Below, in pieces: positions 5,581-46,131 of a DNA stretch of 64,000 nt. The stretch comes from Chloroflexota bacterium (GTDB lineage Bacteria; Chloroflexota; Anaerolineae; UBA4142). Each line of letters opens with the position of its first letter. The stretch's first letter is position 1. The notes beneath the pieces are model-generated. The model saw nothing but the letters and a program-made list of their open reading frames with translations, was not told the DNA's origin and did no database searches. The DNA lies in contig JAMCQI010000061.1 in assembly GCA_023381515.1 (NCBI GenBank), forward strand, positions 62,001 to 126,000, given 5' to 3'. The position numbers and the translations under genes are program-made.

Positions 5581-6930
5581 ATGAGTAAGCCGATTGTCGC
5601 GATTGTGGGGCGGCCGAATGTCGGCAAGTCCACCTTGTTTAATCGCCTGGCGGGAGAGCGGCTGTCCATCGTTTCAGAGACGGCGGGCACCACGCGCGAC
5701 CGTTTGTACGCCGATGCGGATTTCGCCGGGCGCGAGTTTACGGTTGTCGACACGGGGGGCCTGGCCCTGAATGTGCGCGCAGACCTGCCTGGGACGCCTG
5801 CGGCAATGCTGGCGGGGGTGCGCGCTCAGGCCGAAATGGCGATTCAGGAAGCGGACGTCATTGTCTTTGTCGTGGATGTCCAAGAGGGACCAAGCCCGGA
5901 TGATTTCGAAATTGCCGGGATTCTGCGGTCCAGCTCCAAGCCGGTTTTCCTCGTGGTCAACAAGGTTGACAATGAGGCCCGGCGATTGGAGGCGGTGGAG
6001 TTTTACCAGCTCGGCCTGGGAGAGCCGATGCCCATATCGGCGCTGCACGGGGTTGGGACCGGCGATCTTCTCGATCTCATCGTGGAGCATCTGCCGGAGG
6101 AGTCGTCGGGGGAGCAGTCCACGATCCCGCAACTCGCCATCGTCGGGCGGCCGAATGTCGGCAAATCGTCTCTCTTGAACGCGATTCTTGGGGAGGAGCG
6201 GGCTCTCGTCAGCGATATCCCCGGCACGACGCGCGATGCCGTGGATACCGAGTTGGCGTGGAACGGTGAACCGGTGATCCTGATCGATACGGCTGGACTG
6301 CGGCGGCGGGGCCATATTGCGCCGGGCCTAGAAAAGTACAGTTCACTGCGTGCCGTGCGGGCGATTCAGCGGTCGGATGTAGCGCTGCTTCTCCTCGACG
6401 CCGTAGATGGAGTAATGGCCCAGGACCAGCATGTGGCCCAATATATTCTCGCCGAGGGCAAAGGGGTCGTGATCGTGGTCAACAAATGGGACCTCGTCGA
6501 GAAAGAGACGCGGACGATGGAGGATTACACACGCCGCGTTCGCTCGGCGCTGGATTTCATTTCGTATGCGCCGATTGTTTTCGTTTCGGCCAAGACGCAT
6601 CAGAGAGTGCGCCAAGTCATAGACAAGGCGCTGGAGGTGCGCAAGGCGTGGCAGATGCGTGTGCCGACGAGTGAATTGAACGAGCTGCTGCGCGAGTCGA
6701 CCGAAGCTCATGCCCCGGCGGGCAAGGGGAAGAGGACACTAAAATTCCTGTACGCCACTCAGACGGACGTTGCGCCGCCGACCTTTGTCTTCTTTGTGAA
6801 TGACCGGAGACTGGTGCATTTTTCTTACGAGCGGTATCTGGTAAACCGACTTCGCGAGCGTTGGGGATTTGACGGGACGCCGCTGAAGATGATTTTCCGG
6901 ACTCGGCGGAGCGAGCCTAAGAGGGCATGA
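5581..6930 (+). CDS. der: Ribosome-associated GTPase Der (EngA)
   Basis: Tandem-GTPase assembly factor for the 50S ribosomal subunit. Two complete G domains are visible: the first has GRPNVGKS (10-17), TTRD, DTGG and NKVD (127-130); the second has GRPNVGKSS (189-197), TTRD, DTAGLRRRG and NKWD (301-304). A KH-like domain follows from about residue 350. Length 449 is normal for the family. The ATG at 5581 lies 6 nt after the previous stop, so the gene may be co-transcribed with the glycosyltransferase genes. Essential housekeeping gene in most bacteria; cytoplasmic. Confidence 0.97.
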   Translation: MSKPIVAIVGRPNVGKSTLFNRLAGERLSIVSETAGTTRDRLYADADFAGREFTVVDTGGLALNVRADLPGTPAAMLAGVRAQAEMAIQEADVIVFVVDVQEGPSPDDFEIAGILRSSSKPVFLVVNKVDNEARRLEAVEFYQLGLGEPMPISALHGVGTGDLLDLIVEHLPEESSGEQSTIPQLAIVGRPNVGKSSLLNAILGEERALVSDIPGTTRDAVDTELAWNGEPVILIDTAGLRRRGHIAPGLEKYSSLRAVRAIQRSDVALLLLDAVDGVMAQDQHVAQYILAEGKGVVIVVNKWDLVEKETRTMEDYTRRVRSALDFISYAPIVFVSAKTHQRVRQVIDKALEVRKAWQMRVPTSELNELLRESTEAHAPAGKGKRTLKFLYATQTDVAPPTFVFFVNDRRLVHFSYERYLVNRLRERWGFDGTPLKMIFRTRRSEPKRA

Positions 6931-22157: not shown

Positions 22158-22334
22158 TACGGACTGATCTTCGGCGGCCCGGCGGTCATGACGTCGTTGT
22201 CTGCGTTACAGACCCGTGGCTTTGCGTCCCCACCTTTCGATGGGTTTGCCTTTATCGGAACGGTGTACGATTCACCCTCTCGAATCTTAACATTCGCTAA
22301 TACGGCGCACAATGGGAAATGAGTACTGGCAGCT

Positions 22335-42021: not shown

Positions 42022-42405
42022 GTGAACGAGCATAAAGAAATTGTAACAAAGTTCTGGAAAGCCTTTGGTGAGGCCAGGTTCGCCGACGCAAGGCCGCTGC
42101 TGCATCCGAACATCGTGGTCTATTGGCCCAACACAAGAGAGATGTTCAAGGGCAGGGACCGATTCATACGCGCCAACGAAGAATATCCAGGCAGATGGAT
42201 TATCTCGCTCGCAAGATTAGTCTCTGAGAACGATACGGTTGTTTCTGTTGTCTACGTCGAATCTGCTGATCGTGCAGCCAGCTTCTACGCAACATCCTTT
42301 TTCACTTTCAGGGACGGGTTAATAACAGAAATAACAGAGTACTGGTCTGACAGTGGCGAACCGCCGGCTTGGCGGATCGAAAAGGGGTTATCGGAAAGGT
42401 ACTAG
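42022..42405 (+). CDS. SnoaL-like / NTF2-fold protein inside the his operon
   Basis: 127 residues with the NTF2-like pattern: helical start (EIVTKFWKAFGEARFADARPLLHPNIVVYWPNTREMFKGRDRFIRANEEYPG) then beta strands ending in FFTFRDGLITEITEYWSD. Typical of SnoaL_2 proteins, a fold used by isomerases, hydrolases and dimerisation modules. GTG start with a weak GAGG box. Placed between hisG and hisD with normal operon spacing, so it may be co-expressed with histidine genes, but no histidine role is known. Confidence 0.75.
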   Translation: MNEHKEIVTKFWKAFGEARFADARPLLHPNIVVYWPNTREMFKGRDRFIRANEEYPGRWIISLARLVSENDTVVSVVYVESADRAASFYATSFFTFRDGLITEITEYWSDSGEPPAWRIEKGLSERY

Positions 42406-42409
42406 TGCC

Positions 42410-43747
42410 ATGTCCATTCCGGTCTTTACGGGTGTGGCGGCGGGGCGAGAGAGAATTCAAAAACAGCGCGCGTTGGGGGATAAGCAAGTCGCGCCCGCAG
42501 TGCTGGAAAGACTGCATAATCTGTTCGGCGAAGCGCTCACCCCGGATGAAGCGGTGGCGCGCATCATTGCCGACGTGCGCAGCCGCGGCGATTCCGCAAT
42601 CCTCGATTGGACCCGTCAGCTAGATGGTGTCAACCTGGCAAAGACGGCCGTCGGCGCGGAGGAAATCGAAACTGCGTACGAGGAAACACCAGCCGCTGTT
42701 CGTGAGGCACTCGCGCTAGCGGCAGGCCGCATCCGCGCCTTTCACGAAAAGCACAAACCCAGATCGTGGTTGGAATGGGACAAGGAAACCGCGCTCGGCC
42801 AACGAATTACGCCGCTAGCACGCGTGGGCGTTTATGTGCCCGGAGGGGGCGCGCCTTATCCTTCGTCGCTGCTCATGGCGGCCATCCCGGCCCAGGTGGC
42901 TGGTGTGAACGAGGTGACCATCGCGACGCCTCCGCAGCGGGATGGGCATGTAGCGCCCGTAATCCTGGCCGCGGCTCGCGTGGCAGGATTGTCCCATGTA
43001 TTTGCAATGGGGGGCGCACAGGGAATTGCCGCGCTCGCGTTTGGCACCGCAAGCGTGCCGCGTGTCGACAAAATTGTCGGACCGGGCGGGCTTTTTGTGA
43101 CCCTCGCCAAGCGGCAGGTCTTCGGCGCCGTCGGGATTGACGGCTTGTACGGGCCAACCGAGACTCTGCTGCTCGCCGACGATTCTGCAAACCCGGCCTG
43201 GGTCGCGGCCGACCTGCTCGCCCAGGCGGAACACGACGAGCTTGCGACCAGCTTGCTTATCACCCCTTCCCGTGCACTCGCGGACTCTGTCGCAAACGAA
43301 ATCGAGCGCCAGGGGGTGGAGCTGAAGAGGCGCACGATCATCGAGCGCTCGCTGCAAGGGCAGGGGGCGATTATCGTCGTCGACGATTTGGCAGAGGCGC
43401 TTGAACTGGCCAATCTCTATGCCCCTGAGCATCTGTGCTTGCTCGTGCGGGAACCGTGGAATTGGTTGGGACGGGTCGAGAACGCCGGCGGTGTATTCAT
43501 CGGTGAATGGACAAACGAGGCGCTGGGGGACTATGTGATCGGTCCCAGCCACGTGATGCCAACGGCCGGGACCGCTCGTTTTTCCTCGGCGCTGAATGTG
43601 AACGACTTTTGCAAGATCACCAGCGTGTTCAATCTGAGCGCTGCAGAAGCAAAGGCTTTGGGACCATCGGCGGCGGCGCTCGCGGATGCGGAAGGACTGA
43701 CTGCCCATGCGAACGCGATTCGGCAGCGGATGGAGGGCAAAAAGTGA
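42410..43747 (+). CDS. hisD: Histidinol dehydrogenase
   Basis: Last two steps of histidine synthesis; zinc- and NAD-dependent. 445 residues from ATG 42410; the frame is open upstream into the SnoaL gene but family homology starts here. Motifs: VGVYVPGGGAPYPSSLLM, GPGGLFVTLAKRQVFGAVGIDG, ALGDYVIGPSHVMPTAGTARFSS containing catalytic His. Its stop overlaps the GTG start of the selenoprotein gene (GTGA). Confidence 0.96.
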   Translation: MSIPVFTGVAAGRERIQKQRALGDKQVAPAVLERLHNLFGEALTPDEAVARIIADVRSRGDSAILDWTRQLDGVNLAKTAVGAEEIETAYEETPAAVREALALAAGRIRAFHEKHKPRSWLEWDKETALGQRITPLARVGVYVPGGGAPYPSSLLMAAIPAQVAGVNEVTIATPPQRDGHVAPVILAAARVAGLSHVFAMGGAQGIAALAFGTASVPRVDKIVGPGGLFVTLAKRQVFGAVGIDGLYGPTETLLLADDSANPAWVAADLLAQAEHDELATSLLITPSRALADSVANEIERQGVELKRRTIIERSLQGQGAIIVVDDLAEALELANLYAPEHLCLLVREPWNWLGRVENAGGVFIGEWTNEALGDYVIGPSHVMPTAGTARFSSALNVNDFCKITSVFNLSAAEAKALGPSAAALADAEGLTAHANAIRQRMEGKK

Positions 43748-44466
43748 AAGAGCCGCTGAAGGTTGGCATCATTGGAGATTTCGATCCGGGATCGCCGTCC
43801 CACCGGGCCACCAATGAAGCATTAGAACACTCCGCGCGCTATCTGTCGGTTGCCCTGGATCATGTCTGGATTCCCACTCCCTCGCTGGACCGTGCCGGCG
43901 AAGCGATTCTGGACCGGTTTGACGCCCTGTGGTGCGCGCCCGGCAGTCCCTATTCCAGCATGAATGGGGCGCTCAAGGGGATTCAATTCGCCAGGGAAAG
44001 GGACCTGCCGTTTCTGGGAACCTGAGGAGGCTTCCAACATACTCTGTTAGAGTATGCGCGCAATGTGCTGGGCATCCAGGATGCAGAGCATGCAGAGACC
44101 GCTCCGGATGCCTCGACATTGGTGATCAGCAGGCTGACCTGCTCGCTGGTTGGCAAGACCGAAACCGTGCAGATTATGCCCGATACGCTGGCACACAGGG
44201 CTTTTGGGAAAGATGAAACTATCGAAGAGTTCCGCTGTAATTATGGACTAAATCCAGAATACCGCGAGCGATTCGGTAGCGGCGCGCTTTGTATCTCAGG
44301 ACAAGATGCCAATGGCGAGGTGAGAATCTTCGAGTTGCAGGATCGCCGCTTTTTCGTCGGCACGCTATTCCTGCCGCAACTTTCTTCGAGCCCCGCCGCG
44401 CCCCATCCTCTCATTCTGGCATATTTGAAAGCTGCTACATTGAGGACGGCGAATGCCCACTATTAA
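43744..44466 (+). CDS. CTP synthase C-terminal-like amidotransferase, selenoprotein (in-frame UGA = Sec94)
   Basis: 240 residues including Sec. GTG 43744 overlaps the hisD stop; the frame runs KVGIIGDFDPGSPSHRATNEAL...RDLPFLGT, then TGA (44023-44025), then GGFQHTLLEYARNVLGI...LILAYLKAA to 44466 with no other stop. In class I glutamine amidotransferases of the CTP-synthase type this site reads GTCGGFQH, with Cys as nucleophile; here UGA replaces exactly that codon. A hairpin with a GUU loop follows at 20 nt. The family (CTP synthase C-terminal region-related protein) is known to include selenoprotein members. The usual His-Pro-Glu of the triad reads FLPQ here, so glutaminase chemistry is doubtful and a redox or other Sec-based role is possible. 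Start of hisC overlaps its end by 14 nt. Confidence 0.88.
44023..44056 (+). promoter_or_regulatory. Sec codon and SECIS-like hairpin in the his operon
   Basis: UGA at 44023-44025; 20 nt later a perfect 8-bp stem CATACTCT-GTT-AGAGTATG (44038-44056). The loop begins with G within the 16-37 nt window for bacterial SECIS elements. The loop is the same GUU as in selD. Confidence 0.8.
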
Positions 44467-45520
44467 TCTCAATAAACTGTTTCGTCACGACCTTGAGGGC
44501 CTCCAGCCCTATGCACCCTCGCGGGTGACGATTTCGGATATGGACCGAATCATCAAGCTGGACGCGAACGAAAATCCTTACGGTCCGTCGCCCAAGGCAA
44601 TGGCCGCGCTTGCACAAATGCGTCATTGGGAGCGTTACGCAGCCCAGGATGAGCTGCGCCCTGCGCTCGCGCAATATGGGAGGGTTGGGGTCGAGAATAT
44701 CGTCGTCGGAAATGGGGCGGACGAGGTCATCGACTTGGTGCAACGTGTCTTTCTTGACCCCGGCGAGTCGATTGTGGATTTCCCGCCGACGTTTGAAATG
44801 TACAGCCAATGCGCCGCGGTCATCGGCGCACGAGTGATCGAGGTGCCTCGCCGGGCTGATTTCTCCCTGGATATCGACGCCGTCGAACGACTCGTTACAC
44901 AAGAAAGACCCAAACTGATTTTCGTCGCGAACCCGAACAACCCGGACGGCCGCCTGGCCCGTCGACAAGACGTCGAGCGCCTGCTCGAATTACCCGTCGT
45001 CCTGGTTGTCGATGAAGCCTATGCCGAGTTTGCCGGCGAGAGCTTGATCGAGCGAGTCCCGCTGGAAGCCAATTTGGTCGTGGTGCGCACCTTTAGCAAA
45101 TGGGCGGGGCTGGCAGGACTGCGGATCGGCTACTGTGCCGCGCCTGCCAAGATTGCTGACCAGATGTTGCGGATCAAGCCGCCCTACAATGTGAACGCGG
45201 CAGCAATCGTGGCGGCAAAGGCGTCGCTTGAAGATGCCGACTACTTGCTGGGAAATGTTCAACGTCTCATCCAGGAGCGAGAACGCCTGTCGTGGGAGCT
45301 GGCCCAAGTCGGATACTTGGAGCCCCTGCCGAGTTGTACGAATTTCATCCTTTGCCGCGTCGGAAACAAGTCGCCGCTCGATTTGCGGAACCGGCTTGCG
45401 TCCCAGGGGATATTGATCCGGGCCTATACTGCGCCCCAGCTCAGAGAGTACGTTCGCATCAGCGTAGGCACGTCCGAGCAGGATGATGTGCTGCTCCAAG
45501 CCTTGAAAGGACAGGGATGA
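44453..45520 (+). CDS. hisC: Histidinol-phosphate aminotransferase
   Basis: Class I/II PLP aminotransferase, 355 residues: LDANENPYGPSPKAM, VVGNGADEVIDLV, FVANPNNPDG, VDEAYAEFAGES and PLP lysine K216 in RTFSKWAGLAGLRIGY. It starts 14 nt before the selenoprotein stop, indicating coupled translation across a gene that needs UGA read-through. Confidence 0.95.
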   Translation: MPTINLNKLFRHDLEGLQPYAPSRVTISDMDRIIKLDANENPYGPSPKAMAALAQMRHWERYAAQDELRPALAQYGRVGVENIVVGNGADEVIDLVQRVFLDPGESIVDFPPTFEMYSQCAAVIGARVIEVPRRADFSLDIDAVERLVTQERPKLIFVANPNNPDGRLARRQDVERLLELPVVLVVDEAYAEFAGESLIERVPLEANLVVVRTFSKWAGLAGLRIGYCAAPAKIADQMLRIKPPYNVNAAAIVAAKASLEDADYLLGNVQRLIQERERLSWELAQVGYLEPLPSCTNFILCRVGNKSPLDLRNRLASQGILIRAYTAPQLREYVRISVGTSEQDDVLLQALKGQG

Positions 45521-46131
45521 TCGTCGAACACCAAGGCAAGCGTCCCCAAATCCATCCATCTGCTTTTGTCGCGCCGACCGCGACGGTCTGCGGTGACGTT
45601 CGAATTGGCGAAAACAGCCGGGTACTTTTCGGCGCTGTTCTTGTCGCCGAAGGTGGTCCCGTCGAGATAGGCGCCGAGTGCATCATCATGGAAAACGCGG
45701 TTATCCGGGGGAGCAAACGGCACCCGGTGCGTATAGGCATTCATGTTCTAGTGGGCCCGAGAGCCTATCTGACTGGATGCACAATCGAGGATGATGTCTT
45801 TCTCGCCACGGGCGCGACGGTGTTCAATGGCGCCCGTATCCAGACCCGCTCGGAAGTACGGATCAACGGCGTTGTGCACCTGAAAACTGTTCTGCCGCCT
45901 GACAGCGTGGTTCCCATCGGCTGGGTTGCAGTCGGCAATCCCGCGAGTATTTTGCCTCCACAGGAACATGACAAGATCTGGGAGCTTCAAGGGCCGCTGA
46001 ATTTCCCCCACGAGGTATTTGGGCTGGAACGGGCGGCGCAAGGGGAGACGATCATGCCCGAATTGATGCGTCGCTACAGCCAGTACCTCGCGAGTCATAA
46101 AGATGATCGACCGCTGGATCAGGAGGAGTGA
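45517..46131 (+). CDS. Gamma-carbonic-anhydrase-like left-handed beta-helix protein
   Basis: 204 residues with hexapeptide repeats: IHPSAFVAPTATVCGDVRIGENSRVLFGAVLVAEGG, ECIIMENAVIRGS, VLVGPRAYLTGCTIEDDVFLATGATVFNGARI. This is the gamma-CA/YrdA/PaaY fold, with a His in GIHVLVGP and GVVHLKT as possible metal ligands. The canonical ligand pattern is not fully conserved, so carbonic anhydrase activity is uncertain. Overlaps hisC (ATGA) and lies 3 nt before hisB. Confidence 0.8.
   Translation: MIVEHQGKRPQIHPSAFVAPTATVCGDVRIGENSRVLFGAVLVAEGGPVEIGAECIIMENAVIRGSKRHPVRIGIHVLVGPRAYLTGCTIEDDVFLATGATVFNGARIQTRSEVRINGVVHLKTVLPPDSVVPIGWVAVGNPASILPPQEHDKIWELQGPLNFPHEVFGLERAAQGETIMPELMRRYSQYLASHKDDRPLDQEE

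Follow-up and report, generated by a model that had tools for sequence, protein, structure and literature searches.

We found that a gene of the NF004836 family in a Chloroflexota bacterium very probably encodes a selenoprotein, its in-frame UGA at position 44023 being predicted to be read as selenocysteine (Sec94). The gene lies at positions 43744-44466 of the forward strand of the window, by which we mean the whole 64,000-nt stretch of DNA that was analysed. It starts with a GTG codon, and its frame (43744-44463) contains a single internal stop, the TGA at 44023-44025, before the terminal TAA (44464-44466). Read through, it yields 240 residues, in which PFLGT precedes the TGA and GGFQHTLLEYARNVLG follows it. 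The original prediction had described this frame, its only interruption and the flanking residues, all of them accurately. The read-through protein matches the NCBIfam profile NF004836 with 336.1 bits over residues 5-231 (curated cut-off of 260) and thus belongs to this family, whose NCBI name is "CTP synthase C-terminal region-related (seleno)protein". The window gene carries its TGA where the GT[CU]GGF motif of the family has Cys or Sec. It does not encode a CTP synthase: the 240 residues match only residues 288-542 of PyrG, and the N-terminal synthetase domain is absent.

The selenoprotein family itself is already known, since its Sec form was predicted in 2025 and the NCBI name already contains "(seleno)protein"; the window gene is a well-supported member rather than a new kind. 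Xiao and Zhang predicted the Sec form in Desulfosediminicola ganghwensis under the name "glutamine amidotransferase (COG0504, PyrG)" and reported TGA homologues in other bacteria (2025; PMC12013277); in a review of 2026, which cites their paper, NF004836 is listed with the motif GxUxG (PMC13188914). Judging from the sections of these sources that describe the family, the window gene resembles NF004836 (PRK06186) in its family score, in the Sec at the nucleophile elbow, in its widespread Cys homologues and in the TGA homologues of other bacteria. Relative to the same sections of the 2025 paper (PMC12013277), the present genes differ in belonging to Chloroflexota, in having a hairpin sequence common to six loci and in lying beside hisC in three genomes. 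What is new here is therefore the Chloroflexota members, their conserved bacterial SECIS (bSECIS) element and the position just before hisC in three genomes. The family gains members from this phylum, and the conservation of the bSECIS at the codon level gives stronger support than any single genome does.

Genomic context of the Sec gene

As originally predicted, the Sec gene lies inside the his operon. Upstream of it is hisD (histidinol dehydrogenase; 42413-43747, forward strand, with a chosen start codon, the longest frame beginning at 42353), with a TGA stop that overlaps the GTG codon at which the Sec gene begins; downstream is hisC (histidinol-phosphate aminotransferase; 44453-45520, forward strand). 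The complete cluster of the window reads hisZ, hisG, a SnoaL-like gene, hisD, the Sec gene, hisC, a hexapeptide gene, hisB, hisH, hisA, hisF, hisI and hisE. The SnoaL-like gene (42022-42405) and the hexapeptide gene (gamma carbonic anhydrase-like; 45517-46131) are interwoven with this operon, and neither had a match in the related loci L006 and L007. The order in L006 is hisZ-hisG-hisD-Sec-hisC-hisB-hisH-hisA-hisF-hisI-hisE. In L007, the Sec gene also precedes hisC; no hisD was found in the 1175 nt upstream, where the contig ends, and a frame of the histidine phosphatase family separates hisC from hisB. The Sec gene is thus located just before hisC in three genomes and between hisD and hisC in two of them, a placement in the operon that is specific to this lineage. 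Elsewhere in the window, a c-di-GMP-I-GGC riboswitch aptamer was identified at 22169-22259 of the reverse strand (75.4 bits).

No location in a his operon was found when we compared the flanks of three other UGA loci (L064-L066), three Cys loci (L067-L069) and six distant loci (L008, L009, L010, L012, L014 and L016). Near the gene in L009 there are two weak hisC-like matches (21-24% identity). A Pfam scan of 16 near neighbours in L064-L069, three of which had no match, revealed no family common to the loci. We draw no functional link from gene context, as the gene lies outside the his operon except in the three genomes and no neighbour family is shared. The Sec gene is no known part of histidine synthesis; in this bacterial family it is probably co-transcribed with the his genes because it was inserted at that place.

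The junctions with hisC allow a further role to be considered, which is compatible with the selenoprotein explanation. The gene could also serve as a selenium-dependent valve of the his operon: at low selenium, ribosomes would stop at the UGA and the coupled translation of hisC would fall. In the window, hisC begins 14 nt before the Sec gene ends, and in L006 the two genes share a TAATG stop-start overlap, preceded by only a GGA, some 9 nt from the start, and by no strong Shine-Dalgarno sequence; both junctions favor such a valve. Yet hisC of the window has its own possible Shine-Dalgarno sequence, GAGGA (44442-44446, forward strand), 6 nt before its ATG at 44453, and in L007 a gap of 115 nt separates the genes and a separate AAGGA stands 6 nt before the hisC ATG. 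The location of the gene outside the his operon in the other loci compared also argues against the valve. From these junctions, translational coupling between the Sec gene and hisC appears possible in two of the three loci (the window and L006) and unlikely in L007, because of its gap and its own AAGGA. The L007 gap (1887-2001) contains an inverted repeat, CTGTCATTCTGAGCG ... CGCTCAGAATGACAG, with arms at 1893 and 1962, which looks as if it were a small inserted palindromic element; because repeats of this kind insert between genes, the two genes may originally have been closer together. On balance we consider the valve improbable. Slightly more doubtful still is the reading of the Sec codon as a selenium sensor, in which read-through would bring ribosomes to the overlapping hisC start so that the output of hisC tracks the selenium supply. 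The original prediction had inferred that initiation of hisC depends on Sec read-through, which would tie histidine synthesis to selenium. Such a tie is a guess, and among the titles and abstract openings covered by our literature search we recognised none that connects selenoproteins with the biosynthesis of histidine.

Conservation of the UGA codon

Less likely than the valve is the possibility that the TGA is a true stop, leaving a pseudogene or a truncated protein of 93 residues, or a sequencing error in a Cys codon. The distribution of the codon argues against it and in favor of selenocysteine: a TGA occupies the same column in five further Chloroflexota loci with 58-69% protein identity, where it is accompanied by the same hairpin and by frozen codons. 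In addition, the invariant residues of the family are retained in frame downstream of the TGA. The database protein P0029, whose sequence starts after the TGA, shares 98% identity with the downstream part; this would fit a second sequence interrupted in the same way.

The residues found at this position in homologues also point to selenocysteine. We aligned 134 homologues to the window protein: 124 present a Cys, two a TGA (L006 and L007), six a Trp and one a Leu, and one does not cover the position. Unrelated residues in the homologues had been named in advance as grounds for abandoning selenocysteine; most homologues in fact have Cys. The alignment likewise supports the proposal that the TGA codon is homologous to the nucleophile Cys379 of PyrG. 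When the search was made across genomes of the class, the gene was detected above the cut-off in seven of 298 genomes, of which four have a frame interrupted once only, by a TGA, and three contain Cys codons.

A conserved hairpin downstream of the UGA

A bSECIS-like hairpin, CATACTCT-GTT-AGAGTATG, is found at 44038-44056 of the forward strand. Its stem (44038-44045 and 44049-44056) is formed by eight Watson-Crick pairs and starts 12 nt past the UGA, and its GTT loop (44046-44048) is reached at 20 nt; the original prediction had given this geometry correctly in every detail. The published bSECIS model requires a loop of 3-9 nt, a stem of 4-16 bp, a G among the first two loop bases, a distance of 16-37 nt from the UGA and a minimum free energy of at most -7.5 kcal/mol (PMC13188914). 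Set against that model as given in the legend of Fig. 2 of the review, the window hairpin agrees in its 3-nt loop, its 8-bp stem, its distance of 20 nt and its first loop base, a G followed by U or G across the loci (PMC13188914). In energy it is marginal: the minimal 19-nt hairpin alone reaches -7.4 kcal/mol, narrowly missing the limit of -7.5 set by the model, and the 50-nt stretch reaches -13.9 kcal/mol.

On its own, this hairpin is only moderately unusual. Three of the 1816 TGAs of the window (both strands), including the one at 44023, are followed by a perfect stem of at least 8 bp under the spacing and loop-G rules. The 50-nt fold has a z-score of -0.79, and 38 of 200 shuffled sequences fold at least as well. 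That the folding energy alone is not extraordinary is a point in favor of a true stop.

Conservation is what lifts the hairpin above chance. The sequence CATACTCT-G[T/G]T-AGAGTATG was found at an equal distance from the UGA in all six distinct UGA genes (the window, L006, L007, L033, L035 and L036, with L034 and L006 counted as one gene), with 18 of 19 bases identical, and it was absent from all three Cys genes of the 298-genome class draw. The key result comes from codon usage, which we compared at columns where the six UGA genes agree in their residue, excluding Met and Trp. A single codon is used for five of the six invariant residues inside the hairpin vs. one of 72 elsewhere (Fisher p = 1.7e-6). 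For comparison, the same test on 13 Cys loci gave none of two columns inside the hairpin region, where only these two were countable, and none of 33 outside. Selection on the RNA would simply explain the frozen stem codons. The claim of a bSECIS hairpin therefore gains support from its conservation, frozen codons included, in all six UGA loci. A search for the same hairpin in 400 genomes of the phylum returned one match, the same gene in genome G296; since this draw included only G296 of the four UGA carriers, the count says little on the frequency of the gene.

These observations suggest that the UGA at 44023 would be decoded as Sec94 by SelB and tRNA-Sec, with the downstream hairpin directing them.

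Decoding machinery in related genomes

Evidence on sel genes comes from five relatives whose genomes carry the UGA form (G002/G299, G003, G102, G009 and G296), G002 and G299 having identical tRNA and SelB coordinates. SelB was detected above the cut-off in all five, and a tRNA-Sec with the anticodon tca in four (G002/G299, G003, G102 and G009). SelA was above the cut-off in G003 and G102, and G009 presents a fragment at a contig end. G299 (L006/L034; 93% complete) gave no SelA match, despite its UGA gene, two SelB matches above the cut-off and a tRNA-Sec. The three components were thus found together in G003 and G102 only.

Two genomes leave some room for a true stop. G296 (99% complete) contains the UGA gene and its hairpin, but no tRNA-Sec was found in it. 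Its best candidate (C5, 17502-17588), which scored 47.9 bits in Rfam against a cut-off of 47, was rejected as it is a tRNA-Ser according to ARAGORN. The selA match in the same genome is split over two overlapping frames (C6, 30365-31518). In G001, the nearest genome compared, selA was not found, no selB was above the cut-off, and the best tRNA-Sec match was rejected as a tRNA-Leu by ARAGORN; this genome is 70% complete, and it also presented no match to the hisD-hisC stretch and no his region. The original prediction had named the absence of selA, selB and selC from the genome as a ground for refutation, and the answer, which comes from relatives only, is divided: all three genes are present in G003 and G102, and none was found in G001 at its 70% completeness. 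With the conserved TGA column and hairpin weighed against these absences, selenocysteine remains the preferred reading.

Because selA is common in the class, with a match above the cut-off in 245 of 298 genomes, its presence does not discriminate between readings; a selA match was obtained for nine of the 13 genomes of family f1, to which G001 belongs. Matches to tRNA-Sec (65-71 bits) also occur in the three genomes of the class draw that carry the Cys form; one of these matches, in G125, was checked by ARAGORN. When the window was queried with two SelA and two SelB proteins, only SelB gave a match, a weak one (27%) at 6133-6639; this SelB-like stretch is probably another translational GTPase.

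A second gene interrupted by TGA was observed in L065 (5535-7262, reverse strand), about 3 kb from the Sec gene. Its two in-frame pieces both match the Pfam family UGSC (PF24696), with the TGA at GVGH-TGA-STCAPAV. UGSC is itself a selenoprotein family. Because this gene is interrupted by TGA and lies near the Sec gene, the L065 genome probably makes other selenoproteins.

Fold and predicted chemistry

The AlphaFold model of the read-through protein has a pLDDT of 95.2, and among the 50 PDB matches listed by a structure search with this model, all are CTP synthases, with TM-scores up to 0.92. The protein is thus predicted to fold like the glutaminase domain of CTP synthase, with Sec94 aligned to Cys379 of PyrG. 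It resembles the glutaminase domains of E. coli (1s1m), Sulfolobus (3nva) and human CTPS2 (2vkt) in fold and in the position of the nucleophile, with 25-29% identity. Unlike PyrG, it has no synthetase domain and lacks the catalytic His and Glu, and Cys165 and His99 are invariant in its family.

This retention of the PyrG fold and of the nucleophile elbow could indicate that the protein is active as a glutaminase and provides ammonia, Sec serving as a better nucleophile. We consider this even less probable than a true stop. The His-Pro-Glu of PyrG (residues 515-517, of which the His and Glu are catalytic) corresponds in the window protein to Leu210-Pro211-Gln212 (codons at 44371-44379, forward strand, placed by the alignments), so the protein departs from the Cys-His-Glu triad of class I glutamine amidotransferases at Leu210 and Gln212. 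Across the 135 aligned rows, the column of His515 contains Val in 93, Leu in 25, Gln in 16 and Glu in one, and never His; the column of Glu517 contains Gln in 126, Pro in seven, Glu in one and Leu in one. As the glutaminase His is missing from every aligned row, amidotransferase activity is unlikely. The original prediction had read FLPQ in place of His-Pro-Glu and had concluded that Sec is probably not used for glutaminase chemistry. The reading was right, and the conclusion is borne out: all 135 rows lack the His, and 134 of them lack the Glu.

Because the His and Glu for glutamine hydrolysis are absent, the protein most likely does thiol or selenol chemistry rather than releasing ammonia. 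All 38 rows of alignment A1 share five residues: Cys165, His99, Glu103, Glu161 and Arg194. Cys165 aligns with His469 of PyrG, which adjoins Arg470, a residue that binds glutamine in PyrG. We propose that Sec94 would attack an electrophile or an oxidant and that the invariant Cys165 may then resolve it, in a redox or transfer chemistry of the Sec/Cys type; this pairing is suggested by the alignments. The puzzle extends to the whole family, in which a glutaminase fold retains its nucleophile, sometimes upgraded to selenium, with the rest of the triad discarded.

Tryptophan at the Sec position and phylogeny

A reading of the TGA as tryptophan under genetic code 4, to which the six homologues with Trp at this position would point, is the least credible of all, because hisZ, hisD, hisC, hisB, hisH, hisI and hisE of the window all stop at TGA; moreover, the relatives whose DNA was seen carry Cys codons or TGA and never TGG. 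The six Trp homologues were compared as predicted proteins, and their Trp letters probably reflect gene calls made under code 4.

In the tree of the family, the Sec and Trp rows fall within one half, alongside Cys rows, although the fork that defines this half is weakly supported (45/99). The window protein groups with L006, L007 and P0003 (98/83). P0003, a homologue in the clade of the window, is the one that presents a Leu at the Sec position, which may be a real loss of the nucleophile or an artefact of gene calling.
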